A DNA stretch of 42,977 nucleotides from Geminocystis sp. GBBB08 (GTDB taxonomy: Bacteria; Cyanobacteriota; Cyanobacteriia; Cyanobacteriales; Cyanobacteriaceae), in contig NZ_VRZC01000012.1 in the NCBI RefSeq assembly GCF_016743215.1, forward strand, positions 1 through 42,977, in the 5' to 3' direction. The position numbers were made by a program, and so were the translations under genes. The notes beneath the pieces are model-generated. The model was not told the origin of the DNA. It did no database searches and saw only the letters and a program-made list of their open reading frames with translations. The stretch's first letter is position 1. Every line of letters begins with the position of its first letter. Shown here one piece after another: positions 7,455 to 40,613 of the stretch.

Positions 7455-7535
7455 TATCATTAAACAAACTACAGTTTTAAGTAGGTGTTTGTTAGGTTGC
7501 ACTTCGTTTAACGACAACCTACTCGTTATTTTTCT
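7455..7535. repeat. Palindromic repeat / possible bidirectional terminator between murF and the kinase gene
   Basis: Inverted motifs GTAGGT and ACCTAC, with a nested TAGGTTG...CAACCTA, bracket a TTCGTTTAACGA core. This resembles the widespread cyanobacterial intergenic palindrome of the type GTAGGTTG...AACGAAACC. It lies between two convergent genes, where a hairpin could stop transcription from both sides. The right part overlaps the 3' end of the kinase gene. Confidence 0.4.
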
Positions 7536-10500
7536 GTTTTAAAATCACTAAAGTTATATCATCAAATATTTTTTGATTACCTATAAATTCTCTTACATTA
7601 TTAATGATTTTTTCTTGAATTTCTTGAGCAGATTTGTGACGATTCTGTAAGGCTATTTGACATAAATTATCTAACCCATATTGTTGTTGATTAAGATTCT
7701 CAGCTTCGGTAATACCATCGCTATATAAAATTACTAAATCTTCAGGATTCAATTTAATTTTTATTTCGTTAATAAAATGGGCTATTTCACTTTCTAAACC
7801 GAGAGGAAAACCTAAATCAAGAGTATCTATTTTTTCTATGTTTCCATCAGCACGAATAAGAATTATTTCTTCATGTTGTCCACTAATTTTAAGTATATTA
7901 TTAGTATAATCTAACACGGTTAAGGTCATATTTTTATCAGATCCCATTCGTTGTAAATTATCATATAAAGTTTGATTTAAAATGTCTAAAAATCGCACAG
8001 CATCGGTTTCATTAGTCTTTTGTAAAGTGCGGATTGCTGTTTGTGCCATTAACATTAAAACTCCACTTTCTAAACCATGGCCGGTAACGTCTCCAATGGT
8101 TATTTTAACTCCACTTTCACTTTTTAAAACATCATAATAATCGCCGCCTACTTCTTCAACTGCTGACATATATCCGGCTATATCTAATTCGGAAATAGCT
8201 TCTAATTCTTCAGATTTAGGTAAAACCATTTCTTGCAATTTTTTGGCAACATTTAACTCTGCACTTAATCTTAAATTTTCAATTTTCAATTTTTCATTTA
8301 AAGTAATAATTTCTTGATTTGCACTAGCTAATTGGGCGGTTCTTTCCTTGACTTTATCTTCTAAAGTTTGGTATAATATAGCATTTTCAATGGCGATAGA
8401 TGCTTGTCCTGATAAGAGTTTTATTACTTCTAATCTATCTTCGGTAAAAGCTGATGTAGTAAGGTTATTTTCTAGGTAAACAATTCCTATTAATTTACCT
8501 TGATTTAGTAAAGGAGTACATAAAATTGATTTAGGTTTTTTGGCGATAATATAAGAATCATTAATAAAATTTCCTTGAGAATTAGCATCATTTAAAACAA
8601 GATCTTCTTTGACTCTAGCGACGTAATTAATGAGGGTGACAGGTAATTTATTTTCCATGGGTAAAGATTGTAAAGCAGTAATATTGTCATTATCCATAAA
8701 TCCTTCGGCTTCAATTAATAATTGATGATTATTTTCTAAGATTAAATAACCTAATTGTGCCCCCGCATTTTGAATAATAATTTTCATCAGAGAAACTAAC
8801 AATTTTTCTAATACTATTTCCCCTGAAATTGCTTGACTAGCTTTCATTACTGTTGCTATATCTAAGTTAGAATGAGAATCAGAAGCTGTTGCGTTGGTTG
8901 TAATTGTACGATGTGATTTTTTGCTGTGAGTTGCCAAAAATTGGGGATATTCTTTTTCTAAATGTTTAACTTTTGTTATCGCCCCCCAACGCAAATAACA
9001 ATAATGTGCTTCTACTAAATATACATTAGCTATTTTTTCTTTTCCCCAATGGAGGTAAAATTTACCCGCTAATTCATTGGCTAAGGCTTCTTCATTGAGA
9101 TATTCATATTCTTTGGCACAGGCGATGGCACTATCATATAATTCTATACATTGGAGTTTATCCCCCAAAATGCGAGTTTTTTCTGCTTCTACTAAATACC
9201 ATTTATGTAAATAATTCATCGGTGCATTATCAGCCCACATTTTGAGCCGATTTTGCAAATTTTCAATTTGTTGCTGATGATATTGCTTTTCGCTATCAGA
9301 AGCAATTTCTAGGGCTAATAAGTGAGTTAAAGCGGCAAAAAAAACAAATTGAGGTAAAGGATTGTGTCCACAAATACTATAAATATACTTTTTACCTTCT
9401 AATACATCTTCCATTGCTTCAGAAATATAACCAAATAAATAGTGAAGGTAGAGTTTACTATAGTAATGAATACTTAAACCGAGTAAATTATTCGTTTGAG
9501 TAAAGAATAAAAGTGCTTGTTTCTCATGATAAATCTCTCCATCAAGATTCCATGGGGTTTGTGAATCTCTTAAATTAGTTACAGTTTGTAAATTAGCAAG
9601 GGTATATTGTCTAGTTCCCTCTGCTTTAATAGAATTAGTAAATTCGATCGCCCTTTTAAAATCCGTTTCTAATTGGCTTAATTCTTTTCCCGCCGCTTTT
9701 TCTAAACGTAAGATGTTAGTGAAAGCATAACCTGCAAATTCCAAATCACCATATTCTATACCACTTTTATAGGCATCTTTTAGGGGAGGGATACAATCGT
9801 TATGATGTTTTTTCCATAGGGTGACAAGAGCATGAACATTATTTAAAATAATAGCTCGACATCGTTGATTATTTTGTTTTTCTAATAAATTGGTGGCAAC
9901 CATTCCATATTGATAGCCTCGAGAGAATTGATCTACACCCGGACTACATAAAATTAAAGCATAACAAGCATAAGAATTAGGAGTTTCATCGCTATGCCCA
10001 TATTTCAAAGAAATTAAAACCCCTTGACAACTAATTAACGGAAATAAATTAGGATTACAAAAATAGCTTAAAGGAGTCATACGAGTTAAAATGCGCATTG
10101 CTGATAACATTGCTTTATCTGTCATTTTTGGCAAATCAATTAATTCTTGTAAGGAATAATGATCAAGTTGAGTTTGAGTTCGTTCTTGCCAAGCTATAAT
10201 AATATTTTCGTCAGAATTTTCTGGCAATTCAATTCCTAATAATTGTAAACAAAATAAACCTAATTTAATGCCATCTAAAAATCGATTCATGACTGAATAA
10301 GCCTGAAGTTTGGTTTCATAAACACCAATTTTATCTAAGAGATTATTACTATTATTAATTACACTCTCTCCTAAAGTTTCCATCTGAGAAAAATCTCCTT
10401 TTAAATAACTAACTTCTGTGGCTTCTAAATATAAAGCTAAAGTTAAATCATATTCAGTTTGCCAACTATTTTGAGGAAGCAATTCTATTCCTATGTTTAA

Positions 10501-12798
10501 ATATTCCATAGCAGCAATATGGGCGATGGATTTTTTGGCTTTTTGCCCAGCAATCAAATTTAATTGTGCTAATTGATTTTTTTGATTTTGTTCAGTAATT
10601 AATTCTCTACTTAAATTAAAATGTTCTACAATATCAAATATTTTTTCATCTCGCTCTTTTTCTGAATAATTTTCTAGCAATATTTGTCCAATTTTTAGAT
10701 GAAAAGCCGATTTTTCCTTTTCTGAAATTAAGGAATAAGCCGCTTGTTGAATTCGATCATGAATAAACTTATATTGAGGTAAAATATAATCTGTTTTTAT
10801 TAAAGCTAAATCAACCTCTTCTCTACTCTCTAAAAAAGTTACTAAACCCTCGGCTACCGCAAATTCTAAAATATCAACAGTTTTCGTCAAAGATTGATTA
10901 ATAATTACCCCTAAAACTTGCACATTAAATTGATTACCAATACAAGATGCTATTTTTAATAATTCTTGTGTATCTTGTGGTAATTTTTGAATAATAGTTG
11001 TCATAAATTCAACAACGTTATCAGTAAATCCTCGCTCTTTAATTTGGCTTAAATCCCATCGCCAACGAAGATATTGATAATCAAATTGTAAAAATTTTTC
11101 TGTATAAATAGATTTAAGAAATTGATTAACAAAAAAAGGATTTCCACCAGTTTTAATCTCTACTAATTCTGCTAAATCTTGAACTTCTGTGAAAGGATAA
11201 TTAATAGAATCTCCTATTAATTGAGCAATATCAGATAAATTTAAAGGAGAAAGAAAAACTTGATTAATAATAGCTCCTGTTTTAGCGATTTCATCTAAAG
11301 TTAACATTAAAGGATGGGATAAAAAAACCTCATTATCTCGATAAGCACCAATGACAAATAAACCTGATAAATTTTGTGTGATTAACATTTGTAATAATTT
11401 CAAAGAAGCATTATCAGCCCACTGTAAATCATCTAAAAATATGACTAAAGGATGTTGAGGTTGCGTAAAAACGTTGATAAATTTTTGAAAAACTAAATTA
11501 AAACGATTTTGTGCTTCTATTGCCCCTAATTCAATTAAATCTGGTTGTTTGCCAATAATTAATTCTATTTCAGGAATAACTTCTGCAATAACTTTACCAT
11601 TTATACCTAATACAGCTAATAATTTATCTTGCCATTGTTTAAGTTTATTTTCTGTTTCTGTTAACAATTGTTTGATTAATCCTCGAAAAGCATTTACTAT
11701 GGCACTATAGGGAATATTTCGCTGAAATTGATCAAATTTACCACTAAGAAAATAACCTTTTTTTGCTGAAATTGGTTTATAAATTTCTTTAACTAGTGCA
11801 GTTTTTCCAATACCTGAATATCCGCCAATTAACATCAATTCAGCACCATTTACTCCCTCAAAAGCCTTTAATAAAATTTCGATTTCTGTCTCCCTACCAT
11901 ATAATTTTTGGGAAATTTGAAACTTATCAGAAATATCATGAGTAGCCAATTCAAAATCTTCTATTTTTCCCGTAGTCTGTAATCTCTGTAAACAATTTTC
12001 TAAATCGGCTTTTAAACCCCATGCACTTTGATAACGATCTTCCACATTTTTGGCCATTAATTTCATGATAATATTAGAAATAATTGGCGGAATTAAAGAA
12101 TTTATTGCGGTAGGAAATAAAGGAAGTTTAGCAATATGACAATGCACTAATTCTAAATCATCTTCAGTATTAAAAGGCAACTTTCCTGTGAACATTTCAT
12201 AAAAAGTAACCCCTAAAGAATAAAAATCAGTACGATAATCGATACTGCAATTCATTCTCCCTGTTTGTTCAGGAGAAATATATGCTAAAGTTCCTTCTAA
12301 GATATTAGGACTTTTAAAAGTAGGATTTTCTCTAGTTAATTTTGTGGAAATACCGAAATCAATTATTTTTACTTCTTCTGTTTCTAGATTAATAACAATA
12401 TTAGAAGGATTGATGTCTTTATGAATAATATTTGTCTTGTGAATTTGCCCTAAACTGGCAGTAACTTTAATGGCAATTGATAGTAACTTTTCTAAATTAA
12501 ATGACTGTTTTTCTGCTAAGTTTTTCCATGATTTACCACCAAAATCTTCTAAAACAATTAATAAACTATTCTGATATTTTTCTAAACTATAGGCTTTAAT
12601 TACACCATCAATATTAAGAGAATTAGTTAATTGATATTCTTGACGATAACGAATCAATTCATTAGGGGTAGGATAGTCTTGTTTTAAAACTTTTAAAATT
12701 ACTTTTTTTTGATCAATTTTACCAACAGCATTATAAACTTCTGAGTTGACACTGTCATAAATCTTACTTATTATTTGGTAATCAGGTAAATTGATCAT
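7519..12798 (-). CDS. Giant Ser/Thr kinase - AAA ATPase - GAF - PP2C (SpoIIE-type) phosphatase
   Basis: 1759 residues. Domains in order: (1) Hanks-type kinase at ~1-270, with a VAIK-type lysine in VILKVLK, catalytic loop HKDINPSN (~125), DFG (~147) and SPEQ; (2) AAA_16-type ATPase at ~290-560, with Walker A GGYSGIGKT (~327) and Walker B VIFLDDLQWAD (~455); (3) a long alpha-helical, TPR-like region at ~600-1280; (4) GAF sensor at ~1310-1460; (5) a short coiled coil at ~1465-1515; (6) PP2C/SpoIIE phosphatase at ~1530-1755, with metal-binding motifs GGDYYD, IGDVTGHG, YSDGITEAE and FDDIT. All catalytic residues I looked for are present. Kinase-ATPase-GAF proteins (PknK/HstK type) are common in cyanobacteria, where the C-terminus is more usually a histidine kinase or GGDEF domain. 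As the last gene of the GGDEF-HATPase-STAS operon it probably supplies the phosphatase, and perhaps an upstream kinase input, for the STAS protein. Confidence 0.9.
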   Translation of the reverse strand: MINLPDYQIISKIYDSVNSEVYNAVGKIDQKKVILKVLKQDYPTPNELIRYRQEYQLTNSLNIDGVIKAYSLEKYQNSLLIVLEDFGGKSWKNLAEKQSFNLEKLLSIAIKVTASLGQIHKTNIIHKDINPSNIVINLETEEVKIIDFGISTKLTRENPTFKSPNILEGTLAYISPEQTGRMNCSIDYRTDFYSLGVTFYEMFTGKLPFNTEDDLELVHCHIAKLPLFPTAINSLIPPIISNIIMKLMAKNVEDRYQSAWGLKADLENCLQRLQTTGKIEDFELATHDISDKFQISQKLYGRETEIEILLKAFEGVNGAELMLIGGYSGIGKTALVKEIYKPISAKKGYFLSGKFDQFQRNIPYSAIVNAFRGLIKQLLTETENKLKQWQDKLLAVLGINGKVIAEVIPEIELIIGKQPDLIELGAIEAQNRFNLVFQKFINVFTQPQHPLVIFLDDLQWADNASLKLLQMLITQNLSGLFVIGAYRDNEVFLSHPLMLTLDEIAKTGAIINQVFLSPLNLSDIAQLIGDSINYPFTEVQDLAELVEIKTGGNPFFVNQFLKSIYTEKFLQFDYQYLRWRWDLSQIKERGFTDNVVEFMTTIIQKLPQDTQELLKIASCIGNQFNVQVLGVIINQSLTKTVDILEFAVAEGLVTFLESREEVDLALIKTDYILPQYKFIHDRIQQAAYSLISEKEKSAFHLKIGQILLENYSEKERDEKIFDIVEHFNLSRELITEQNQKNQLAQLNLIAGQKAKKSIAHIAAMEYLNIGIELLPQNSWQTEYDLTLALYLEATEVSYLKGDFSQMETLGESVINNSNNLLDKIGVYETKLQAYSVMNRFLDGIKLGLFCLQLLGIELPENSDENIIIAWQERTQTQLDHYSLQELIDLPKMTDKAMLSAMRILTRMTPLSYFCNPNLFPLISCQGVLISLKYGHSDETPNSYACYALILCSPGVDQFSRGYQYGMVATNLLEKQNNQRCRAIILNNVHALVTLWKKHHNDCIPPLKDAYKSGIEYGDLEFAGYAFTNILRLEKAAGKELSQLETDFKRAIEFTNSIKAEGTRQYTLANLQTVTNLRDSQTPWNLDGEIYHEKQALLFFTQTNNLLGLSIHYYSKLYLHYLFGYISEAMEDVLEGKKYIYSICGHNPLPQFVFFAALTHLLALEIASDSEKQYHQQQIENLQNRLKMWADNAPMNYLHKWYLVEAEKTRILGDKLQCIELYDSAIACAKEYEYLNEEALANELAGKFYLHWGKEKIANVYLVEAHYCYLRWGAITKVKHLEKEYPQFLATHSKKSHRTITTNATASDSHSNLDIATVMKASQAISGEIVLEKLLVSLMKIIIQNAGAQLGYLILENNHQLLIEAEGFMDNDNITALQSLPMENKLPVTLINYVARVKEDLVLNDANSQGNFINDSYIIAKKPKSILCTPLLNQGKLIGIVYLENNLTTSAFTEDRLEVIKLLSGQASIAIENAILYQTLEDKVKERTAQLASANQEIITLNEKLKIENLRLSAELNVAKKLQEMVLPKSEELEAISELDIAGYMSAVEEVGGDYYDVLKSESGVKITIGDVTGHGLESGVLMLMAQTAIRTLQKTNETDAVRFLDILNQTLYDNLQRMGSDKNMTLTVLDYTNNILKISGQHEEIILIRADGNIEKIDTLDLGFPLGLESEIAHFINEIKIKLNPEDLVILYSDGITEAENLNQQQYGLDNLCQIALQNRHKSAQEIQEKIINNVREFIGNQKIFDDITLVILKQKNNE

Positions 12799-12851
12799 TA
12801 TTAAATTGTATTTATTTTATTAATAAGAATATAAAATTTTATAATCAATAA

Positions 12852-13196
12852 CTAAACTATTTCTAACACAAGACTAGGCATTAATCTTTGTAAATTTTTG
12901 AGAGATTTACTTTGCCAAGGAATTTTTTGTGAACCCATAATGATTAAATTAATTTTTTGTTGATTCCGCACTTTAATTACAAATTTTGAGAACATACTTA
13001 TACCTGAACTATTGAGAAAATCTAAAGAGGTTAAGTCTAAAATTAACGGAGAATTTGCTTCTTGAAGTCCTTGATCTAAGATTTCTAAAATAGGTTCATA
13101 TTCTTTCATGCCATTGAGTCTTAAAGAACCATTAAATTTAACAGTATTTTCAGACGGAATAAAGTCAACTAAAAAATTTTCATTTTCAACTTTCAT
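12852..13196 (-). CDS. STAS-domain protein, anti-sigma-factor-antagonist-like (SiaC/SpoIIAA type)
   Basis: 114 residues forming one STAS domain. The core DLTSLDFLNSSGISMFSKF (about 55-73) is the classic LDLSxVxFiDSSG region, where a Ser/Thr is phosphorylated by the partner kinase. Two serines (NSSG) are candidates. Its neighbours are a HATPase-fold kinase upstream (27-bp gap) and a PP2C phosphatase downstream (53-bp gap), the usual writer and eraser of STAS phosphorylation. By analogy with SiaC of Pseudomonas, the unphosphorylated form could bind and activate the diguanylate cyclase of the same operon. The domain is certain; the partner is inferred. Confidence 0.8.
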   Translation of the reverse strand: MKVENENFLVDFIPSENTVKFNGSLRLNGMKEYEPILEILDQGLQEANSPLILDLTSLDFLNSSGISMFSKFVIKVRNQQKINLIIMGSQKIPWQSKSLKNLQRLMPSLVLEIV

Positions 13197-13222
13197 GCAA
13201 ATTTTTCCTCATTTTTTACCAA

Positions 13223-13810
13223 CTAAATTTCTAATTCAACCATTGTAACAACAACAAAATTTTCCTCCCCATTATTCTTGATCGACTGAAATTTCCATGC
13301 TAATTTAGCTTTATAATCAACAAGTATAGTAAGAAGACCTAACCCTGAAGAATCAGCAAATTCCTTTTCTGCATTTTGTTCTAATCGTTCAAAATATAAT
13401 TCTTGAGGATCATTATTGAGTAATTCTTCAACAAAATTTTGATAGGCTTCATAGAGACTTTGAGTAACATTATTAGTTAACCATAAAGTAATTTTATCTA
13501 CATCTAAATTTAAACGAATACTGATAGAATAATCAATATTGTCGTTATTAAATTTAATGGCATTTTCTAATAACTCATTAGCGATATAACTAACGGTACT
13601 TTTTATTTCATCTCGCCTACTATAATTTTCATTATCTCCCAGGGTTTTAGGTAAAAAGGTTCTAAAATAATCCCCTAAAAAATCCGCTGATAAACCATTA
13701 TTTCCCCATCTTTCTTTTAAGGATAAAGAGGAAGGGGAAAAAGATAATTGTAAATATTCAGTACTTTTTTCTGTTTCAATTTCTCTAAAATTACCATATA
13801 TATTGTTCAT
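13223..13810 (-). CDS. HATPase-fold regulatory kinase, RsbW/SiaB-like
   Basis: 195 residues. The N-box is visible as NELLENAIKFN (about 78-88) and a G2-type ATP-lid motif as SSGLGL (about 153-158), the minimal features of GHKL ATP-binding serine kinases and anti-sigma factors. There are no membrane segments or His-phosphotransfer domain. It starts 5 bp after the stop of the GGDEF gene, so the two are almost certainly co-transcribed and perhaps translationally coupled. In the SiaABCD scheme this is the SiaB position, the kinase that phosphorylates the STAS protein. Synechocystis has similar small paired regulators (slr1658/slr1659, from memory). Kinase activity is inferred. Confidence 0.75.
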   Translation of the reverse strand: MNNIYGNFREIETEKSTEYLQLSFSPSSLSLKERWGNNGLSADFLGDYFRTFLPKTLGDNENYSRRDEIKSTVSYIANELLENAIKFNNDNIDYSISIRLNLDVDKITLWLTNNVTQSLYEAYQNFVEELLNNDPQELYFERLEQNAEKEFADSSGLGLLTILVDYKAKLAWKFQSIKNNGEENFVVVTMVELEI

Positions 13811-13815
13811 ATTAA

Positions 13816-14694
13816 TTAATTCATTATTTGGGCAACAATTTGATTTCTACCTTGACTTTTAGCAATATACATTAATTTATCAGCATAATCGATAAATTCT
13901 TCAGGCTGAATATTAGACGAAGGAATGACTGAGGTAATACCACCGCTAATAGTAATATAAGAACTAACTAAAGATCTTGAATGTTCAATTCTAAATTCCG
14001 CTAATTTTTCTTGAGTTTTTCTCGCAGTTTTAACGGCATTTTCCAGATTTTTATTTGGTAAAATAACAGCAAATTCTTCTCCTCCATACCGGCAAACTAT
14101 ACCATTAATAGGCGTAAATTCTTCATTAATAATATTGGCTACACTTTTGATGCAATCATCGCCTTTAGGATGTCCATAAAAATCATTATACTGTTTAAAA
14201 TAATCAATATCAAAAAATAATATAGTTAAATAATTACCTGTTTTTTCATGAATTTTCCATTGTTTATGTAAATTAAAATCAAAGCCACCACGGTTACAAA
14301 TTTTAGTTAAATAATCTTTCATTACTGATTGATTAATTTCACTAATTTTTTCAAGCCATTGATTATCAATAATATCTCCATGCTCTGTTAAAATATTGAT
14401 CAGTAATTCTAAATCATCTCGTTGTTGTGATACTAGTTCTAGTAAATGTTGAAGTTTAATTTCTGCTTTTTTTCGTTGCTCTATTTCGTGCCTTAATTTT
14501 TTATTTGTTTCTTCTAATAATTCTTCTATGGTATCACCATGTTCTGCTGTAGTTAATAAAGCTATTTGTAAATCATGATTTTCTTGTTGTAAAATTGTTA
14601 TATCTTGTAAAAGACGCTCAATTTCTAATCGTAATTGTTGTTCTGAATAATCATCAATTGAGTCGTTAATAAATTTACTCATAAATTTGCTCAT
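13816..14694 (-). CDS. Diguanylate cyclase with N-terminal coiled coil (SiaD-like)
   Basis: 292 residues. Residues ~18-110 are a long heptad-rich coiled coil with no membrane segment. Residues ~125-290 are a GGDEF domain with DYLTKICNRGGFD, FFDIDYFKQYND and the active-site loop RYGGEEFAV (about 202-210), so c-di-GMP synthesis is expected. The I-site RxxD that normally precedes this loop is replaced by PING, so canonical product inhibition is probably absent. It is the first gene of the operon. ATG is taken at 14694, but the in-frame ATG four codons later has GAGGGG about 12 nt upstream and may be the real start. Cyclases built as coiled coil plus GGDEF (SiaD) are switched on by binding a STAS-like partner, which is encoded two genes downstream. 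Confidence 0.85.
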   Translation of the reverse strand: MSKFMSKFINDSIDDYSEQQLRLEIERLLQDITILQQENHDLQIALLTTAEHGDTIEELLEETNKKLRHEIEQRKKAEIKLQHLLELVSQQRDDLELLINILTEHGDIIDNQWLEKISEINQSVMKDYLTKICNRGGFDFNLHKQWKIHEKTGNYLTILFFDIDYFKQYNDFYGHPKGDDCIKSVANIINEEFTPINGIVCRYGGEEFAVILPNKNLENAVKTARKTQEKLAEFRIEHSRSLVSSYITISGGITSVIPSSNIQPEEFIDYADKLMYIAKSQGRNQIVAQIMN

Positions 14695-15218
14695 CCCCTC
14701 TGTTAAATATATTATACCCGTCTGTTTAGAATTGGCAAAAAAATTTTTGTTTTAAGGTTAGATACGTTATAAGTATTCCAGTATATAGTAAAAATTACTA
14801 AAAATCTCTTACTTAGATCTTGCATCTCTATCATCAATTCTCGATGAGGATAGGGAAAAGGGAAGAGGGAAGAGGGAAGAGGGAAAAGTAATCAGAATTG
14901 ATTTTAAAACTCCTAAAATTGATTTTTCCCGTTTTGTTTTATTGGTATTATTGTACTGGTGCAAGATCTGAGTCTTAACTTTTGCTTATCCCCTCATGAC
15001 ATTACTTTTTCGGCAAAGCTCTAATTAGGGAGATTTAAAAATCAAAGTAAAAATAAAAAAGACATCGACTATATTTGGCTTTTCGGAGGGTTGAAACCCT
15101 TACTACGAGCCTTCGGAAAAATCTATTTGGTAGAAGTCTAAAACTTACAATGAGCATATAATATATTTGTACAAAAAAGATAAATCTCTTACTAAGAAAC
15201 AATTTTTAAAATTTTATC
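14695..15218. other. Intergenic region with MITE-like hairpin and purine repeats, no gene seen
   Basis: 524 bp between the signalling operon and the TerF-like gene, both on the minus strand. It holds the nested inverted repeat described at 14815-14969 and a second small palindrome near 15090 (GGGTTGAAACCC) flanked by CTTTTCGGA and TTCGGAAAA. No ORF, tRNA or clear promoter was recognised. The operon promoter should lie at its left end, where an AT-rich TATTATAC-like stretch is present around 14710. Confidence 0.6.
14815..14969. repeat. MITE-like element with nested inverted repeats and GGGAAGA tandem repeats
   Basis: Outer arms AGATCTTGCA (14815-14824) and TGCAAGATCT (14960-14969) form a perfect 10-bp inverted repeat. 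Inner arms ATCAATTCT (14833-14841) and AGAATTGAT (14894-14902) form a perfect 9-bp repeat. Between the inner arms lies a purine tract with at least three GGGAAGA-type heptamers (about 14853-14886). The size and structure fit a non-autonomous MITE into which a short tandem repeat has expanded. Confidence 0.5.
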
Positions 15219-16496
15219 TTAAGATTTCGGGGTGGGAAAATGTTTTAACCACTTGGGAAATTCCTTCAGTAATCTTTTATATAATTCTTCATCTGTAACT
15301 TTTTTAAAATCATCAATAGCGAAGAAATTGGCATTATCAATAGTTCTACCTTTAAGACTATCTAATCTTTCTAAAACTCCATAGTTTGAACCGCCTAAAC
15401 CCACAAATTGCCAAAATATAGGATATTTAGAGGCATCAATAAGAATCTTTGCTATTTCCTTTTCACGACAAATACCACCGTCTGAAATAAAAATAATAAA
15501 TGCCGGAATATCTGTATTTTTATAATAGTTAACAACATCTTCCATCACTGGAGGTTCATTATTAGCTATTCCTAAATCTTGAATAATTCCTGAAAAAAGT
15601 GTACTCCAAAAACCCCCTTTTGGTTTTGTTAAAGAATTAATATATCCGGTAATATTATCAATATTGATATTATCTAATTGACGATATTTATCTGCGTAAG
15701 CCCATGATTCTAATTCTTCATTATCATCAAAACGAATAGCTAATGCCATAATTCTTTCTAATACGGCTTGTACATTTCCACTACTATATTGAAAACTCAT
15801 CGAGCCTGATGCGTCTAAAACAAAAGCGACTCTAGCCATAGTATTATTAAGATTACTTTTCTTTAGCTGAATATCAACTTTTTTGACTAGATTTATGAGT
15901 TGAGGAGCTTTCTTTTCTAATCTTTTTTCTAGGGATATTTTAGGCTCTGATTTGATAATTATAATATCCTCTAGTTTAGTTCCATACTGCTCTAATAATG
16001 AACTTAAACCATTTTTGAATCCTTGACTTATAATTCCTAAACGCCATACTTGTTTTAAATAAATTTCAGCAATAATTAATGCTTTTTCTTCCTGAAAGTC
16101 TTTTCCCCAAAAATTATATTCTGCTACAGTTTTACCTTGATTATTAATAATTTTAAAAGAATTATTTTCTAATTCAGAAATTGAAATATGTTGCTCAATA
16201 GTTAAACTAAATACAAGTTTAGTAATACTAGGAGGTAAAGTAGATAAATTAATCTTAAAAGTTCTATTTCCTTTAATATTATTGTTAATATTTTCAAGAG
16301 ATTTACAAGGTGAAGATAACTGATTATCAGAAATAAAATATTCTTGAGCAAACAGTTTATTTTCAGCATTAACTCCAAAGCAATTTATCTCAATTTTAAT
16401 ATTTTTATGAATATTTGTCTCAATAACAATAACAAATTCATCAGTTAAGGCTAACTGAGATAATTGAACTTTTTGTCCTTTGATTAATGATTGCAT
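15219..16496 (-). CDS. TerD-domain plus VWA protein (TerF-like, tellurite/stress family)
   Basis: 425 residues. Residues ~1-185 resemble a TerD-type domain (opening LIKGQKVQLSQLA, then beta-rich, with AEYNFWGKDFQEEKALIIAEIYLKQ and a G-rich helix LGIISQGFKNGL), the calcium-binding fold of tellurite and chemical-stress proteins. Residues ~215-420 are a VWA domain of the TerF class, with MIDAS DASGSMSF, a Thr-rich loop and FISDGGIC. No signal peptide is seen, so it is probably cytoplasmic. No other ter genes are adjacent, so it is an orphan here. The name reflects domain order; a role in tellurite resistance is not implied. Confidence 0.8.
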   Translation of the reverse strand: MQSLIKGQKVQLSQLALTDEFVIVIETNIHKNIKIEINCFGVNAENKLFAQEYFISDNQLSSPCKSLENINNNIKGNRTFKINLSTLPPSITKLVFSLTIEQHISISELENNSFKIINNQGKTVAEYNFWGKDFQEEKALIIAEIYLKQVWRLGIISQGFKNGLSSLLEQYGTKLEDIIIIKSEPKISLEKRLEKKAPQLINLVKKVDIQLKKSNLNNTMARVAFVLDASGSMSFQYSSGNVQAVLERIMALAIRFDDNEELESWAYADKYRQLDNINIDNITGYINSLTKPKGGFWSTLFSGIIQDLGIANNEPPVMEDVVNYYKNTDIPAFIIFISDGGICREKEIAKILIDASKYPIFWQFVGLGGSNYGVLERLDSLKGRTIDNANFFAIDDFKKVTDEELYKRLLKEFPKWLKHFPTPKS

Positions 16497-16850
16497 CTTA
16501 AAAATTTGGTTAAGGTTAATATTAAGTTATTCGTAGGTTTCTTTTTTCCTTATCTATTTATCAGTCTCACTTTGTCAATTTATGCAGTTGTTGATGAAAA
16601 TTTTAGATTTTTTTTAGATTTGTCAACAGAAATCAGGAATTATTTTTTATAGCAGTCGCCATGATGCTATTGACATTATTAACAAAGGGTTTAAACCTCT
16701 GCCTAAAGGATTCAAATATCCTAACTAACGTGTCAATTGTTATATTATTAAGTACAACAATAAAAACTATTAAAAAAATACAAAAACAATAATCCTCTAA
16801 ATCGTTATAATCATAATTTGCACTGCAATTATTTCACATTTTTTTATTTT
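16497..16850. other. Intergenic region upstream of nrdB
   Basis: 354 bp between the divergently transcribed TerF-like gene and nrdB. It contains a GGGTTTAAACC palindrome near 16690 similar to the centre of MITE copy A, a small ATAGCA...TGCTAT hairpin (about 16651-16672) and a TATAAT at 16806-16811 that could be a -10 box for nrdB, although no good -35 box precedes it. No NrdR-box-like pair was recognised by eye. Confidence 0.4.
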
Positions 16851-18809
16851 ATGGTAGCTACATTTAACGGAAGTAACCAAAGAATGCCTCTTACTCCTAT
16901 TTTTAATCCGGGAGGTGATGATCGCATTGAGAATCGGACGATCTGGTTCGGAAATACGACAAACTTAATGCAACTCAATGATGTTCGCTATTCATGGGCC
17001 ATCGGATTGTATCAGCAAATGAGAGAAAATTTTTGGATTAACTAGGTAGTCCAGTTTAAATCCCTTGAAAACGGTGAAACTCTTTTTAATAGACAATACC
17101 GTGCCAAGCTGTTACAAATGACAGAAGGTGTAGAGACTAAAACTGATTCTAATTTAAAGCTACCAACGTGTAGTTAAAAAAAATGAAACTCACAAAAGAA
17201 ACTAGAAATCTTATTCTAGCAATGGCTATTGGTGACGGTAATATTAACAATGGTTGTCTTTTTATAGTTCATTGTGAAAAACAAAAGCAATATTTGGATT
17301 GGAAACATGAACTAATCAAAAATATTAGTGGGAAAATTTCTCGCTTTATAAATAATGGCTATGTTGCTTATAGATTTAATACAAAAAGATTAACTTTTCT
17401 TAAGCAAATAAAACCATATTTGTATAAGCAGGAAAAAATAACTCCAAAAATTCTGAATAGAATTGGAGTAATTGGATTGGCAATTTGGTATATGGATGAT
17501 GGTTCTTTGATTAAAAAAAAAAGAAATGGAAAAATCCATGCCTATGAGTTGGTTTTATCTACTTACTTTAATTCAGAAGAAAAAGCTAATGAAATAATTG
17601 ATTGGTTCAAAACCAAGCTAAATATAAATTTCACTGTTAAAAGGAATAAAGGTAAATTTAGTATTCGTTGTGGTACTTCAGAAAGTCGAAAATTTATCCA
17701 ACTTATCAAGCCATATGTTGAAAAAGTTGGATGTTTTGATTATAAAATTGATATTAATTTAGAATCAGGCTGATTAAATATCAGTAGAGTAGGCAGTAAG
17801 CGATGGACTGTCGAAGCGGGGGACTCCTTTATACCAGTAAAGGATGATGATATAGTCCGATCCATAAGGTGACTTATGGCAGCTTGAACAAAGCGAGTTA
17901 GGAGTAGCGATCTTAACTGAACAGAAATGACCTCAAAAACTAGATATAACACAAGATGTAACTGATTATTGGAATTTAACCAATGATGAGCGTCGTGCCT
18001 TTGAAGGAATTTTATCTTATTTAACCTTTTTAGACTCCGTTCAAACTTGCAATATTCCTCACTTAAAAAGTGCCATTACTGCCCCTGAAATTAGTCTTTG
18101 TATGGCGGAACAAATATCTCAGGAGGGGATGCACAATCACGCTTATCAATATATGATTGAGACGATTATTCCTAGTGATAAAAGAGACAAAGTTTATGAT
18201 TTTTGGCGGACTGATAAAGTTTTATCTGCTAGATGTGAATTTATTGCTGGTTTCTATCAAAAATATATTGATAATCCCACCAAAGAAAATTATTTTATTG
18301 CCCTTTTAAGTGATTATTTATTAGAAGGTTTATACTTTTATAATGGCTTTATTTATTTTTATAATTTAGCTGCTAGAATGTTAATGCCGGGTTCTGCTGA
18401 TATATTTAAAATGATTAATCGTGATGAATTAAGTCATGTGAGATTATATCAAAAATTAATTCCTGAAGCGATGCAAACTTTTGATTATTCTTTAGAATAT
18501 ATTTATGAAATGTTTAATACTGCTGTAGAGCATGAATGTAAATGGACAAATCATATTGTCGGCAATAACATCTTAGGTATCACTGAATCTAGCACTGAGC
18601 GTTATACTAAATACCTTGCTAATACTCGTTTACGGGCGATCGGTTTAGATCCTCTTTATACAGGTGCCCAGTATAGCAAAAGTCCTTACACTCATCTCGA
18701 AAAATTTTCTGATACCAAGAAAGAAGGTAATACTAAAGCCAATTTTTTTGAAGCCAGTGTCACCAGTTATATGATGTCGTCGGGAGTTTCTGGATGGGAT
18801 GAAATTTAG
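16851..18809 (+). CDS. nrdB: Class I ribonucleotide reductase small subunit (R2), split by a group I intron
   Basis: Exon 1 is 16851-17038 and exon 2 is 17930-18809. Joined, they give 355 residues reading FWI-PQKLD across the junction without interruption. The protein supplies the tyrosyl radical for deoxyribonucleotide synthesis. All diiron ligands are present: D98 (FLDSVQ), E128 and H131 (EGMH), E195 (LLEGLYF), E229 and H232 (DELSH). The radical tyrosine is Y135 in HNHAY. Continuing from exon 1 into the intron gives a stop two codons later, so splicing is needed for a full-length product. ATG 16851 is preferred over the upstream in-frame TTG at 16818 because MVATFNG looks like the conserved N-terminus. 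The large subunit is not in the window. Confidence 0.93.
17039..17929 (+). ncRNA. Group I self-splicing intron in nrdB
   Basis: 891 bp. The 5' exon ends in U and pairs as UUGGAU with an internal guide GUCCAG at 17049-17054, giving the P1 helix with the required U-G wobble at the splice site. The intron ends in G (17929). AGGU at 17044-17047 can pair with the first four bases of exon 2 (ACCU), forming P10. Core elements: AGAGACUA at 17132-17139 with GACUA (17135-17139) pairing to UAGUC (17853-17857) as P7; a perfect P8-like hairpin CCUUUA/UAAAGG (17826-17843); and a 7-bp P9-like hairpin closed by a GUGA tetraloop (17862-17879). A LAGLIDADG endonuclease ORF lies between the two P7 strands. The helices were matched by eye and the subgroup was not assigned. 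Confidence 0.88.
17183..17773 (+). CDS. Intron-encoded LAGLIDADG homing endonuclease
   Basis: 196 residues with two LAGLIDADG-type motifs: LILAMAIGDG (about 10-19, catalytic D18) and LAIWYMDDG (about 99-107). Two motifs in one chain suggest a monomeric enzyme that cuts an intronless nrdB allele at the insertion site and so spreads the intron. The protein is basic, as expected for DNA binding. It is free-standing inside the intron, not fused to exon 1, and no strong Shine-Dalgarno precedes its ATG. The ORF is complete with both catalytic acidic residues, so it may still be active. Some enzymes of this family also act as maturases for their intron. Confidence 0.88.
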   Translation: MKLTKETRNLILAMAIGDGNINNGCLFIVHCEKQKQYLDWKHELIKNISGKISRFINNGYVAYRFNTKRLTFLKQIKPYLYKQEKITPKILNRIGVIGLAIWYMDDGSLIKKKRNGKIHAYELVLSTYFNSEEKANEIIDWFKTKLNINFTVKRNKGKFSIRCGTSESRKFIQLIKPYVEKVGCFDYKIDINLESG

Positions 18810-19501: not shown

Positions 19502-20482
<981 letters not shown>

Positions 20483-31781: not shown

Positions 31782-34700
31782 TCATTCTAAATTCCTAATT
31801 ATTTCCGCTAAATTAATTGGTTTTTCTAAGGGTAAATTATGTCCTCCTTCAATAGTAAATATATCAGCTTGAGGCATTGCTAATTTTTGTGCCTCTAAAT
31901 CTTCCTGACGATTAAAATTACTGCGATCGCCATATATAATGGTTAAAGGTATATTGATTTGTGATAGTAACTGTAAATATTGTGCTCGATGAATGCTATT
32001 AACGATACCAGCGCGAGTAGTTAAAAGGGGTGCATAGGAGAAAGTAACTCCATTGATTACAGCACGAGTAGTACGTTTGGCTAAATTGAAAGCGAAGTCG
32101 AAGGTTAAATCAGGGTTGGCGGTTTGCAGACGTTTAGCAACGGTTTCCACATCGGGGAAAATCGGCAAAGAAGGAGGTGATAATAGATAGTCTAATTGAC
32201 TGGTGATATTGCTTAAATCTTGATAGTTATTGTTTTCTACAGGTAAAACTGGCTCTACTAATACTAAATTACTAACTTTCGGCGATCGCATATTAGTGAA
32301 AACGGCGGTAATAATTGAGCCGAAAGAATGTCCTACTAATGTAAAAGGTTTGTCAGTTAATTTAGTGGTTAAAGAGTCTAAATCGGCAACAAAATCTAGT
32401 AAATTATAAGAGCAACCTTGACTAAGATGATCAGATTTTCCATGACCTCGTAAATCAGGAGCGATGATATAATAATTTTGTTTAGCAAGAGATTGAGCAA
32501 CTTTTTCCCAAGCATAACCTTGTTCTAAGATACCATGTATTAGGACGATGGGGGGATTTGCGGGATTTCCCCATAGACAAACACAGAGATTTAACCCTCC
32601 GACATTGATAAATTCTTCTGTCATTTTTACCGTTGTTGCTTCGTGAGGTAGTTGATAGTTAAAAGATTTTGCCAGATTGACAGTGATAGGATGAAGAAAA
32701 ATAGGCAACTGAATTTTACGCCAATGATTAGCTAATTTAGGATCAATGTGACTGCGGGTGTTAAAATTAGGATCACCTACTGACATAGATTTACTACGCA
32801 CACCATCTGTCATTCTGTCACCCTCGTAAGGATTTAAGACTGATTCAGAAAAAGGCACTTCTAAAAAGTCACACATTTCCTGCATAATTTTTTCCGGTTG
32901 TGTCACTAAGTCTTCATAAAAAACTTGATAGATTTTAGATGGGTTTAATCCACGAGTAAAATCGAGAATGTTTTGATTGGTTTGATGCCAAATAGACTCA
33001 CCAATTTCGTAGGGGTTGCCGTCACTTAACCCTAGTAATTTATCCATGCGTAAACGGGAAAAAGATTCTACCACTGAATAAGGATGACGAATTAAATGTA
33101 TATATTTTGCTTGGGAAAACATTTTTTCACTATGGTAAAGAATTTCTTTTGCCATGCCATAGGTAGGAGACTTATCTACCAAAAGACGATTACCGCTTAA
33201 TTGTTGCAAAATTTTATATAACTCAGAGATAGATAAATTTTCCTTCACCCATTGATTAACTAAATCTTCACTTTCTTGGGCACAAATTCCTTTTAAATCC
33301 ATAATAGTACGAATTAATCCCTCTCCGAGATGAGAAGTCTCTAATTGTTTTTGTCTTTCCTGCATATTCACAAAAGGTAATAAATGCAATTCTGGAGGAG
33401 AGACTAAATTCCCATGCCCTGCTAACATGACTCTTAAGAGAGTTGATCCAGAGCGCGGACTTGATAAAATAAAAGCAATAGGCTTTGGATTAATAGTCGA
33501 TAGTGGATAGTTAATAGTAGATAGTGAAGGATTAGCAACAGAAAATGACTTATTTTCCGCTTCGAGTTTCCCTGTCTTTCTATCTTCAAGTCTTTTTGTC
33601 TTTGAGTCTTCTTGTTTTTGAGTCTCTTTGCCTTCGAGTCTTCCTATTTCTAAAAGGTGAGTTGAAGAAAATTCCTCACTTAAATAACTAGCTAATACTG
33701 AAATTCGAGGGCGCTGATAAAATTCACGAGGGTATAATATCAATTGTAAGTCAGTTTTTAGGTAGTTAATTGTTTCCATTATCATCAAAGAATCCATACC
33801 TAAATCTAAAAGACTTTCATCAGGATTAATTTCCTTCGGGTTGAGATGTAAAATATTGGCAATCGCTTTTGTGAGATAATCAACTAATAAAATCTCTCTT
33901 TCGTTATTATCAGCTTGAGTTAATTCTGTAAAGAGATTGTTAACGCCTTGATTAGTGAAAGTTTTGTCATCAAAATCAGCGACAATTTCTTTTAAGTAAG
34001 GATAAGTCAATAAATTAGGGAATTTTTGGGCTAATTTTTGCCAATTAATCTTCATTACTCCCCATTGCCATGAAGAAGAGTTAATCAAGTCTCCTAATAA
34101 GTTTATCCCTTCATGGACATTAATTAAGTCAATGCCGTCAGCAGAAAGAGAATGTTGTTTTAATTCTGTCATACCAACATCAAAGGCACCCCAATTTATT
34201 GTTAAAGCAGGAAGATTTAAACGATGACGATAACTAGCAAAACTATCTAAATAACCATTTGCCGCACCATAATTACTTTGTCCTGCTGAACCTAACAAAG
34301 AAGCGACAGAAGAAAACATCACAAAAAAGTCTAAGGATAAATCAAGAGAAAGGAGATGTAAATTCCATGCGCCTTGAATTTTTCCTGCCATAACTGAAGA
34401 TAACTTTTCGGCAGTAAGAGTAGTTAAGATTCCATCAGCTAAAACTCCGGCGCTGTGAATGATACCTTTGAGAGGCGGGAAAAATGAGGAAGAAATTTGT
34501 TGAAAAATTCCTCTTAAATTTTCTAAGTTTGAGACATCAACATTAGCCACCAAAATTTTTATTCCTTGTTTCTGCCAAGAATCTAATTGCCGTTGAATGG
34601 TTATGGATGGTTGACGACGAGATATTAAGATTAAATTTTTTGCCCCTTGACTAATTAACCAACGGGCGCATTGAATACCTAGGGCACCTAATCCACCAGT

Positions 34701-37700
34701 AATTAAATAACTTGATTCATTATTAATAGAAACTTGAGGGGATTTTTCTCTTAGAGTATAAGATTCTTGAGGATTTCTGATCTTAGGTATGATGTTATAT
34801 GAATATCTTTGCGTCTTTGCGTCTTTGCGAGAAATAATCATATCTTGATTAAGCAACCCCAGTTGTTGATTATCAACAGGAGAAAATTGTTTTTGCAAAC
34901 GAGGATAGTAAATATTTTCTTCTCGAATGGCACTCATATTTTCAAGGTTATCATTATCGTCATTAATTTTTGTTAATAATAACGATAACTGAAAAGAATT
35001 TTCCTGATTATCAATGTCAATTATACCCCCCCAATATTCGGGATGCTCAAGGTTGATAACTTTTCCTATTCCCCATAAACTACCACCTTGAGGATTTATT
35101 TCTTCATCGGTAGTAACTAATTGAGAGTTTTGAGTCACTAACCAAATTTTACTTTTATATGCAGTCATTACCAAACTTTGTAGTAAATAGATGACGGGAA
35201 GACAGCCTAAAAAATTAGTTTCCTCTAAATCTAAAGTTGCTGTTGGCGTTAATGTAGATAAACCCCAAAAATAAATTATTTTGTCGATAGGTTGCTCAAT
35301 ATTTTGCCATAAATTTTGATAATCTTGAGGATTACTCGGATTTAACCAATAATTGTTACCTTCTTGTTTATATTCTTTTTCCCGATAGACTAAATAAACT
35401 TGATTTCCTTGAAAGATTAATTGACTAGCTAACGTTTCTTCTTGAGATGATTTGTTAGCGAAAATTAAGTAACTATATTTAGTGTGATTATTAACGTCTA
35501 ACTTTTCTGCTTTTAACCAATGAAGTTTATACAACCCATCGAAAGATAATTTTTGATTGTCTTCCTTGTTATCTTCATTATCTCCTAACCAATAACGCTG
35601 ATTTTGCCAAGGATAATTTGGTAGTTGTACTTTTTTTAATTGAGGATAATCTTGATAAAAACTTACCCAATTAATTTTAATGTTTAAAGTGTATAACTCG
35701 GCTAAACTTGTCAGTAAATTTTGCCAGTCTGATGCCTTATTCCTCAAACTAGGTAAATAAATATTGTCGTCATTATTTAAAGAATGTTTTGCCATACCTA
35801 AGAGGATAGGCTTCGCCCCAATTTCTAATAAGACTTGATAATTTTCCTGTTGTAGATATGCCAAACTTTGATTAAATCTCACAGGTTTTATGATATGCTC
35901 AACCCAATATTGTGCCGTAGCAATTTCTTGTTGATTAACATTCCCCGTGACATTAGAAATAATAGGCAACTTTGGTAACTTATAGTCAACAGTAAGGGCG
36001 ATTTCTCTAAATTCAGCTAAGATTGACTCCATCAAAAAAGAATGAAACCCGTGGGATACGGTTAATTTTTTCGTCTTGATATTATTTTTTCTTGCTTCAT
36101 TTTCAATAACATCTAAGATTTGCTGATAACCAGAGATGACTATATTATTATCACCATTGATAACAGAAATTTCAACTTGATCATTAAACTTGTCAATTAA
36201 TTGATTAACTTTTTCTTCATTAGTCAATAAACATAACATTCCACCATCAAGGGGTAACTTTTGAATTAATTTTCCTCGATAAGCAATTAACTTTAAAGCG
36301 TCTTCTAAACTAAAAATTTCAGCTATCGTTGCCGCCACATATTCTCCTACACTATGCCCCATAACTATAGCCGGTTTTATGCCCCATGTTAACCACAATT
36401 TTGCTAAGGCATATTCAATGACAAATAAAGCTGGTTGAGTATAAATTGTCTGATTTAATAAGTTTTCATTTTCGCCATCAAATAAAATTTCTGTTATTGG
36501 TTTGTCTAGATAGTTATTTAAAATTTGCTCACAATAATCGATGGTATTTTTAAAAGTCGGGGAAGTTTGATATAACTCATAGCCCATTTTACTATACTGT
36601 GATCCTTGCCCGGTAAATAAAAAAGCAATTTGTTGATTATAGTTAACTATCCTATTTTGACGGTGTTTTAACTGCGAAAAAATTTCTTCTCGATTCTTAC
36701 CTACTAATGCTAACTTATATTGAAAACTCGATCTCCCAACATTAGCAGTAAAACAAATATCAGCAAAATTAACCTCAGATTTTTCTTGTAAATAAGATTG
36801 ATAACGAATAATTAAATCATCTAAAGCTGTCTCACTTTGTGCCGATAATGTCAGAATATGATAACTCGGATTAATAGTTGAAAATTGAGAGTTGAGAGTT
36901 GATAATGAGGAATTAGCAAAAGAAAATGACTGACTTTCGTCTCCTGATTTTTGTTTATTACCATCTCCTTTTTCTTTTTTCCTGTCTGTTGACGATAGAA
37001 GAGAATTAGTTTCACCTTCATTTTTGTTAACAACTTCTTTTTTTTCTTCTCCTTTTGTATTCACCCATTGTAAGGAGGGATTAAAGGAAGTTTGTCTTTT
37101 GTCTTGATTATCAAGGGGGATTAAGGGAGGTAATTTATCACCAATAATAACATGAGCATTTGTCCCTCCAAAACCAAATGAGCTTATTCCTGCATAACGA
37201 GGTTGAGTGGAAGATTCCCAAGAAATAGATTTTGTGGCGATTTTAACTCGACTTTTGTCTAAATTAATATAAGGATTAAGTTTAGTAAAATTAATCGTAG
37301 GAGGGATAATATTATGTTTTAATGCCAAAACTGTCTTTATTAATCCTGCTATTCCGGCGGCCGCTTCTAAATGTCCGATGTTTGTTTTTGCAGAACCTAC
37401 ATAAGTAAAAAATTCCTGCCCACCACTAGAGTATAATAACTCACTGAGGGAATTAAGTTCAATCGGATCGCCTAATGCTGTACCAGTGCCATGAGCTTCG
37501 ATATAATTAATTTTATCAGCATTAATCCCTGAATTTTGCCATGCCGATTGTATCACTTTTTGTTGTGCTTTTCCCGACGGTGCAGTTAATCCATTACTTC
37601 GCCCGTCTTGATTAATCGCCGAACCATAAATCACTGCTAATATATTATCATCATTGGCGATCGCCTGAGCAAGAGGTTTCAAAATAATAACACCACAACC

Positions 37701-40544: not shown

Positions 40545-40613
40545 GTATATCGAATTAACGTAATTATTAAGTATCTTTCTAATTATTAAACAATCGTTAA
40601 CAATTAACAACAA

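Follow-up and report, generated by a model that had tools for sequence, protein, structure and literature searches.

A repeated stalk motif accompanies the slr1659 STAS family in a candidate partner-switching operon of Geminocystis sp. GBBB08

Partner switches are mostly known for the release of sigma factors, and SiaABCD is, to our knowledge, the one structurally solved case of a STAS-fold protein that activates a diguanylate cyclase by binding to its stalk. What does a partner switch control when its genes adjoin that of a cyclase, and through which contact would it act? We addressed this question for an operon of the cyanobacterium Geminocystis sp. GBBB08 that lies in a 42,977-nt stretch of DNA, hereafter the window (NZ_VRZC01000012.1 of assembly GCF_016743215.1, positions 1–42,977). 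Four minus-strand open reading frames, separated by intergenic gaps of 5, 26, and 53 bases, encode in this order a GGDEF protein, a HATPase, a STAS protein, and a giant protein that ends in a PP2C phosphatase domain (Table 1). A sequence-only reading of the window had proposed this four-gene operon and a partner-switching circuit aimed at the diguanylate cyclase; the operon is present as proposed, and the fold of the HATPase, the phosphosite triplet of the STAS protein, and two copies of a motif in the cyclase stalk agree with such a circuit. The stalk motif, which was overlooked in that reading, is the most informative part of the operon, while the giant fused phosphatase, its headline, is the less novel half. 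Reasoning by analogy with SiaABCD, we consider that the operon is probably a partner-switching module, which would control the diguanylate cyclase through docking of the STAS protein on the repeated stalk motif.

The HATPase–STAS pair and the cyclase stalk

The HATPase is a member of the slr1658 family and the STAS protein of the slr1659 family, both scoring above the family cut-offs (Table 1); the HATPase also scored 215.4 bits against superfamily NF047703 (cut-off 100). In Pfam, the STAS protein scored 26.7 bits, and the HATPase gave a sub-threshold match to DUF6272 alone (23.6 bits, cut-off 26.6). The 4.1-Mb genome carries one above-cut-off copy of each type. An AlphaFold model of the HATPase, with a predicted local distance difference test score (pLDDT) of 90, matched the folds of UsfX (Z 14.4), SiaB (Z 13.6, 155 of 170 residues), SpoIIAB (Z 12.9), and RsbW (Z 11.7). 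Six residues of the HATPase are invariant (E79, E82, N83, N113, S155, and G158), and the usual Asp of the DxGxG box is apparently replaced by Asn (N113). Judged by the model, the protein is predicted to be a GHKL kinase that has the SpoIIAB/RsbW/SiaB fold and an intact N-box (E79/N83).

In the STAS protein, the stretch N62-S63-S64-G65 is invariant among 40 sequences, and its first three residues align with N67-T68-S69 of SiaC. The SiaC protein adjoining a true SiaD reads YLNTSS at the phosphosite, and the T68 phosphopeptide of Pseudomonas aeruginosa SiaC is LLYLNTSSIK (PMC7647112). The alignment suggests that the STAS protein is a partner-switch substrate, carrying the conserved Ser/Thr where helix 2 begins.

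The GGEEF catalytic motif of the GGDEF protein is present and conserved in the alignment, and no RxxD inhibitory site was found at the usual place, which reads TPIN instead. Its N-terminus, which the sequence-only reading took for a coiled coil, was modeled as a single helix that carries two specific copies of a motif, 53 residues apart (Table 1). The motif has the consensus D-L-x3-L-x-T-T-x-E-H-G-D and occurs in one to three copies per protein; D15, L16, L20, and H26 are invariant in an alignment of 32 motif sequences.

Distribution and spacing of the stalk motif

We fetched 77 loci around slr1659 matches in genomes of the cyanobacterial phylum and 80 loci from named genomes, a set outside which the Synechocystis slr1658/slr1659 locus falls (loci are numbered with L and genomes with G). 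Neighborhoods combining GGDEF, HATPase, STAS, and PP2C recur among the relatives, a co-occurrence on which the sequence-only reading had staked its proposal beforehand. The N-terminus of the GGDEF protein was also seen in other proteins encoded beside slr1659, namely class III cyclases, histidine kinases, and PAS or HAMP proteins, and the motif is the element common to these neighbors. Of the 86 motif proteins that these loci encode, 33 have a GGDEF domain, 22 a class III cyclase domain, and 16 a histidine kinase domain; 84 of them were encoded within 2.5 kb of a STAS gene, and 84 shared the strand of that gene.

A motif profile built from cyanobacterial STAS neighbors only was then searched in the same 386 genomes of the cyanobacterial phylum as slr1659. 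Strong matches (E below 1e-9) were found in 42 genomes, all among the 53 that carry slr1659 above the cut-off, and in none of the 333 genomes lacking it (Fisher p 2.5e-46, relatedness ignored). Three slr1659-negative genomes gave partial matches of 22 bits; these fell in one orthologous kinase coil that lacks EHGD, and we rejected them as false positives. In at least 10 genomes, a motif protein, often with a GGDEF domain, lay outside the STAS neighborhood, and examples of such unlinked stalk-GGDEF proteins encoded far from the STAS gene are found in L146, L148, L150, L151, L153, and L155–L157. The association was repeated in other phyla: among 247 Acidobacteriota genomes, the motif was present in all three with slr1659 and in none of the 244 others (Fisher p 4e-7), one of the three matches being weak (23 bits) and sharing a contig with its STAS gene, and among 42 genomes of the Beggiatoa order, it was present in 27 of 33 with slr1659 and in none of the nine others (Fisher p 1.1e-5). 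Thus, in three phyla the motif is found essentially only in genomes carrying the slr1659 STAS family.

The STAS proteins are of two types, and that of the window is type A, with the sequence GSLRLNG...NLQRLMP. In a tree of HATPase and STAS sequences, type B formed a clade (support 1.0), the HATPase and STAS types split together, and the window joined, with modest support (0.79), loci in which a stalk-GGDEF gene mostly precedes the HATPase–STAS pair. The motif was present in 42 of the 46 genomes with type A STAS but in none of the seven with type B only. Three type B loci (L054, L066, and L067) encode a class III cyclase with the motif variant YETLVEIITQHST, in operons composed of a giant phosphatase, this cyclase, a HATPase, and a STAS protein; type B STAS proteins may use a related docking code.

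The copies of the motif follow a spacing rule. Distances between neighboring copies in one protein were 25, 39, 46, 53, 60, and 67 residues, and 44 of 46 pairs were 4 mod 7; out of sample, the same held for 20 of 25 spacings, with 32 and 74 now among them. The SiaC-binding sites of SiaD, S50/Q54 and S82/Q86, are 32 residues apart, and four SiaC molecules hold two SiaD stalks in an active dimer (PMC8457831); the 32-residue spacing was also visible in two SiaD sequences that we inspected. The GGDEF protein of the window accordingly resembles SiaD: its predicted helical stalk bears the site twice, and the distance between the copies (53) is likewise 4 mod 7.

Some motif-related proteins stand apart from these enzymes. 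In Mastigocoleus and Rivularia (L212, L213, and L219), tiny motif proteins of 108–113 residues without an enzyme domain sit between the HATPase–STAS pair and a second module composed of a PP2C and a fused HATPase–STAS protein, and could be adaptors. The small Synechocystis protein ssr3402 gave a 13-bit match to the stalk and was considered as a motif-only partner; the single paper found on it is a proteomics study. In two loci from non-cyanobacterial classes of the phylum (L106 and L107), distant HATPase–STAS pairs are followed by a GGDEF protein of 560–567 residues in which no EHGD motif was detectable; these proteins may use a third motif.

A proposed switch and its alternatives

In the switch that we propose, the slr1658-type HATPase would phosphorylate the slr1659-type STAS protein at S63, and the C-terminal PP2C domain of the giant would strip this phosphate when a signal acts on the kinase, AAA, or GAF portion of that protein. 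By analogy with SiaC and SiaD, the unphosphorylated STAS protein would dock on both copies of DLxxxLxTTxEHGD along the parallel GGDEF stalk, keeping two cyclase domains in an active dimer, and its phosphorylated form would release them. The motif would then be a transferable docking site, through which the sensor-phosphatase/HATPase/STAS core could drive whichever class III cyclase, histidine kinase, or GGDEF protein bears it.

The operon would thus work like SiaABCD of P. aeruginosa, although it lies outside the Sia families. The earlier label "Sia-like" was apt in that the same four activities are united in one operon; in addition, the HATPase fold is near that of SiaB, the phosphosite triplet is NSS in the window and NTS in SiaC, and both cyclases have two motif copies on a helical stalk in the same phase. 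The label does not extend to family membership, because all four proteins fell below the Sia cut-offs (HATPase against SiaB, NF038262, 21 bits, cut-off 85; STAS against SiaC, PF09345, 20.2 bits, cut-off 24.5; GGDEF against SiaD, NF038266, 109 bits, cut-off 290; giant against SiaA, NF038263, 44.8 bits, cut-off 700) and the HATPase and the STAS protein have named families of their own; we therefore did not file the operon as SiaABCD. A PF09345 search of the genome itself gave no match and was not informative as a control. The window phosphatase ends a kinase-AAA-GAF protein, whereas that of SiaABCD is a membrane sensor, and the slr1659 system, unlike SiaABCD, serves class III cyclases and histidine kinases as well. 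HsbA–HsbD and BgrV–BgrR are other reported cases of STAS proteins acting on diguanylate cyclases (reviewed in PMC8457831); they belong to different families.

Several points weigh against the proposed switch. We infer the binding, the phosphorylation, the sign of the effect, and the signal. A heptad phase lock is to be expected whenever a motif is bound to the register of an unbroken coiled coil, and the spacing therefore supports a continuous stalk with equivalent sites and not binding as such; moreover, the rule has exceptions: three Beggiatoa-order proteins show a spacing of 54, and two Oscillatoria proteins, in which one copy is degenerate, a spacing of 64. No motif match was obtained in four type A genomes (G091, G174, G229, and G282) or in six slr1659 genomes of the Beggiatoa order. 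The genomes in the association tests are not independent, and the linked cyanobacterial part of the association is partly circular because the profile was built from STAS neighbors, although this does not apply to the unlinked and out-of-phylum matches. The isolated stalk gave no match to the SiaD model, and no sequence similarity was detectable between the EHGD motif and the unrelated motif of SiaD (RISDRYQ). Since true SiaD sequences have this other motif, direct homology of the two stalks was discarded and the likeness retained as an analogy.

The sign of the effect is where an alternative survives best: the unphosphorylated (or the phosphorylated) STAS protein might keep the output enzyme off. 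The sign is not fixed by sequence, the outputs are diverse, and dimer locking need not affect a histidine kinase in the way it affects a cyclase. Against this, the active form of both GGDEF and class III cyclases is a dimer. SiaC, too, activates SiaD by the same kind of binding to its stalk (PMC8457831), and we regard a reversed direction as unlikely.

The identity of the docking partner raises another alternative, namely that the motif receives the HATPase, or a HATPase–STAS complex, instead of the STAS protein alone. The two proteins are almost always encoded together and their types split together, so co-occurrence by itself cannot separate the two modes of docking. However, the STAS protein is favored because at least eight loci (L035, L038, L052, L053, L056, L062, L224, L225, and L227) pair a STAS protein with a motif protein and have no HATPase match in the neighborhood, and the stalk binder in SiaABCD is SiaC (PMC8457831). 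Docking through the HATPase seems improbable to us.

A classic anti-sigma switch, in which the HATPase sequesters a sigma factor, the STAS protein relieves it, and the GGDEF neighbor has a separate job, would accord with a HATPase fold that is as near to UsfX, SpoIIAB, and RsbW as to SiaB, and a sigma-70-like factor is encoded about 4.8 kb away (19526–20482). This gene is nevertheless on the other strand, the operon itself contains no sigma factor, and the recurring partners of slr1659 in three phyla, unlinked ones included, are motif-bearing second-messenger enzymes and kinases, which leaves an anti-sigma role quite improbable. It is very hard to believe that the motif is a generic coiled-coil dimerization element linked to slr1659 as a by-product of shared ancestry: it does lie on a predicted helix, and partial matches did occur in an ordinary kinase coil, but, common as coiled coils are, nothing else matched in the 333 slr1659-negative genomes, the association recurs in two phyla on which the profile was never trained, and motif presence tracks type A STAS within cyanobacterial families.

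Returning to docking of the STAS protein on the stalk, we favor, on balance, the view that slr1659-type STAS proteins recognize DLxxxLxTTxEHGD as a general docking code. Across cyanobacteria, acidobacteria, and Beggiatoa-type bacteria, such a code would connect one phospho-switch, with interchangeable sensor-phosphatases as its inputs, to repeated, heptad-phased stalk sites on cyclic di-GMP (c-di-GMP) cyclases, class III cyclases, and histidine kinases, far-encoded enzymes included. What is new here is the proposed docking code, together with the variety of outputs; the partner-switch core belongs to the known slr1658/slr1659 families. For Slr1658 of Synechocystis 6803, a phenotype in recovery from iron starvation and constitutive overexpression of Pgr5 in the mutant have been described (Zer et al. 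2018, as cited in PMC7555055). Apart from this one phenotype report, we found no mechanism for these families in the literature searched, which did not extend to subscription papers, and no link of slr1658/slr1659 to a docking motif, a GGDEF protein, or other outputs, although a prior report may exist. Should STAS proteins indeed dock on the motif, the Sia mechanism would be one instance of a wider principle that has been reached with different motifs, and outputs as different as c-di-GMP, cyclic AMP or cyclic GMP, and phosphorelays would be wired to one switch via a short repeated helix motif. Such docking would also give the little-understood slr1658/slr1659 families a mechanism, provide a sequence rule for finding targets genome-wide, unlinked ones included, and equip synthetic second-messenger circuits with a control element that is portable and orthogonal.

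Sensor-phosphatases and other features of the window

The HATPase–STAS pair is the constant core of the fetched loci, and the phosphatase and the output differ in position and type. The phosphatase is fused variously to a response regulator, a Cache-HAMP region, a hybrid histidine kinase, an ammonium transporter-PAS region, or a kinase-AAA-GAF front end. The gene order of the window, which in the letters of the Sia genes reads D-B-C-A and had been described as reversed, is shared by L069, where the phosphatase is of the Cache type, and Oscillatoria has the order A-B-C-D; as the order varies among relatives, we dropped the notion that it is unusual. Likewise, no described system with the giant fusion was known to the sequence-only reading, but giant-type homologs occur near HATPase–STAS pairs in nine other loci (L036, L054, L066, L067, L179, L183, L189, L198, and L209), and the idea of a unique fusion was rejected. 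Two of these loci, from Oscillatoria princeps RMCB-10 (L183) and Oscillatoria sp. PCC 10802 (L189), unite the giant, HATPase, STAS, and stalk-GGDEF genes.

The kinase motifs of the giant protein (HKDxNxxN, here HKDINPSN, and DFG), its Walker A and B motifs, and the four acidic motifs of its PP2C domain are intact and conserved in ten giant homologs; the PP2C domain is thus predicted to possess the complete set of metal-binding acidic residues. The front end is the same as that of cyanobacterial (and other) Ser/Thr kinase-AAA-GAF-histidine kinase hybrids, from which the giant differs in having a PP2C phosphatase in place of the C-terminal histidine kinase. Proteins termed "dual kinases," which combine GAF and histidine kinase parts, have been described, and a PP2C joined to a Ser/Thr kinase has been reported in Pseudomonas, with the phosphatase N-terminal (PMC1262709).

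In loci of the Phormidium/Geitlerinema type, an ammonium transporter-PAS-PP2C fusion adjoins the HATPase–STAS pair (L039, 6218–8791, in which the domains were read, and its relatives L040, L042, and L043), and stalk-motif GGDEF proteins are encoded elsewhere in genomes with this fusion (L146, L148, L155, and L156). The presence of both in the same genomes suggests ammonium-controlled c-di-GMP in these organisms.

Table 1. Coordinates and supporting evidence for the features of the operon in the window
Feature	Coordinates	Strand	Evidence
Diguanylate cyclase, GGDEF with N-terminal helical stalk, 292 aa (amino acids)	13816..14694	(-)	Pfam GGDEF, 150 bits
Predicted continuous helical stalk, aa 18-124	14323..14643	(-)	AlphaFold2, mean pLDDT 89
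Stalk motif copy 1, DLQIALLTTAEHGD, aa 41-54, proposed STAS docking site	14533..14574	(-)	Profile, 57.7 bits, E 4.3e-15, own genome
Stalk motif copy 2, DLELLINILTEHGD, aa 94-107, proposed STAS docking site	14374..14415	(-)	Profile, 27.5 bits, E 1.1e-5
slr1658-family HATPase, proposed STAS kinase, 195 aa	13223..13810	(-)	NCBIfam NF052618 (slr1658_cyano), 237.8 bits (cut-off 200)
slr1659-family STAS protein, type A, 114 aa	12852..13196	(-)	NCBIfam NF047705 (slr1659 superfamily), 148.2 bits (cut-off 100)
Predicted phosphosite triplet N62-S63-S64; S63 aligned with SiaC T68	13005..13013	(-)	Invariant in 40 STAS sequences
Giant sensor-phosphatase, 1759 aa: Ser/Thr kinase, AAA_16, long middle region, GAF, SpoIIE/PP2C	7519..12798	(-)	Pfam
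Protein kinase domain of giant, aa 17-257	12028..12750	(-)	Pfam Pkinase
AAA_16 ATPase domain of giant, aa 298-475	11374..11907	(-)	Pfam
GAF domain of giant, aa 1330-1470	8389..8811	(-)	Pfam
SpoIIE/PP2C phosphatase domain of giant, aa 1561-1754	7537..8118	(-)	Pfam; first metal-binding motif VGGDYYDV from aa 1550
Promoter-like TTGCCA-N16-TATAAT directly upstream of operon	14711..14738	(-)	11/12 matches; weak evidence

Promoter-like sites occurred in the window at chance level (44 observed versus 46.2 in shuffles), and a terminator scan found none. Directly upstream of the operon, 524 bases away on the same strand, lies a TerD and TerF-like vWA protein (15219–16496, minus strand). Farther along, a ribonucleotide reductase small-chain gene (16850–18809, plus strand) is split into exon 1, which extends to near 17042, and exon 2, which starts near 17931. 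The intervening group I intron was matched by Rfam RF00028 at 17653–17879 (33.7 bits) and 17068–17141 (21.5 bits), both below the gathering threshold, and contains an open reading frame for a LAGLIDADG endonuclease (17183–17773). Finally, the window encodes a type I polyketide synthase of 2943 residues (31782–40613, minus strand) with AMP-binding, KS-AT-KR, sulfotransferase, and alpha/beta hydrolase domains, a layout that we take to be that of olefin synthase, the 1-alkene maker of some cyanobacteria.

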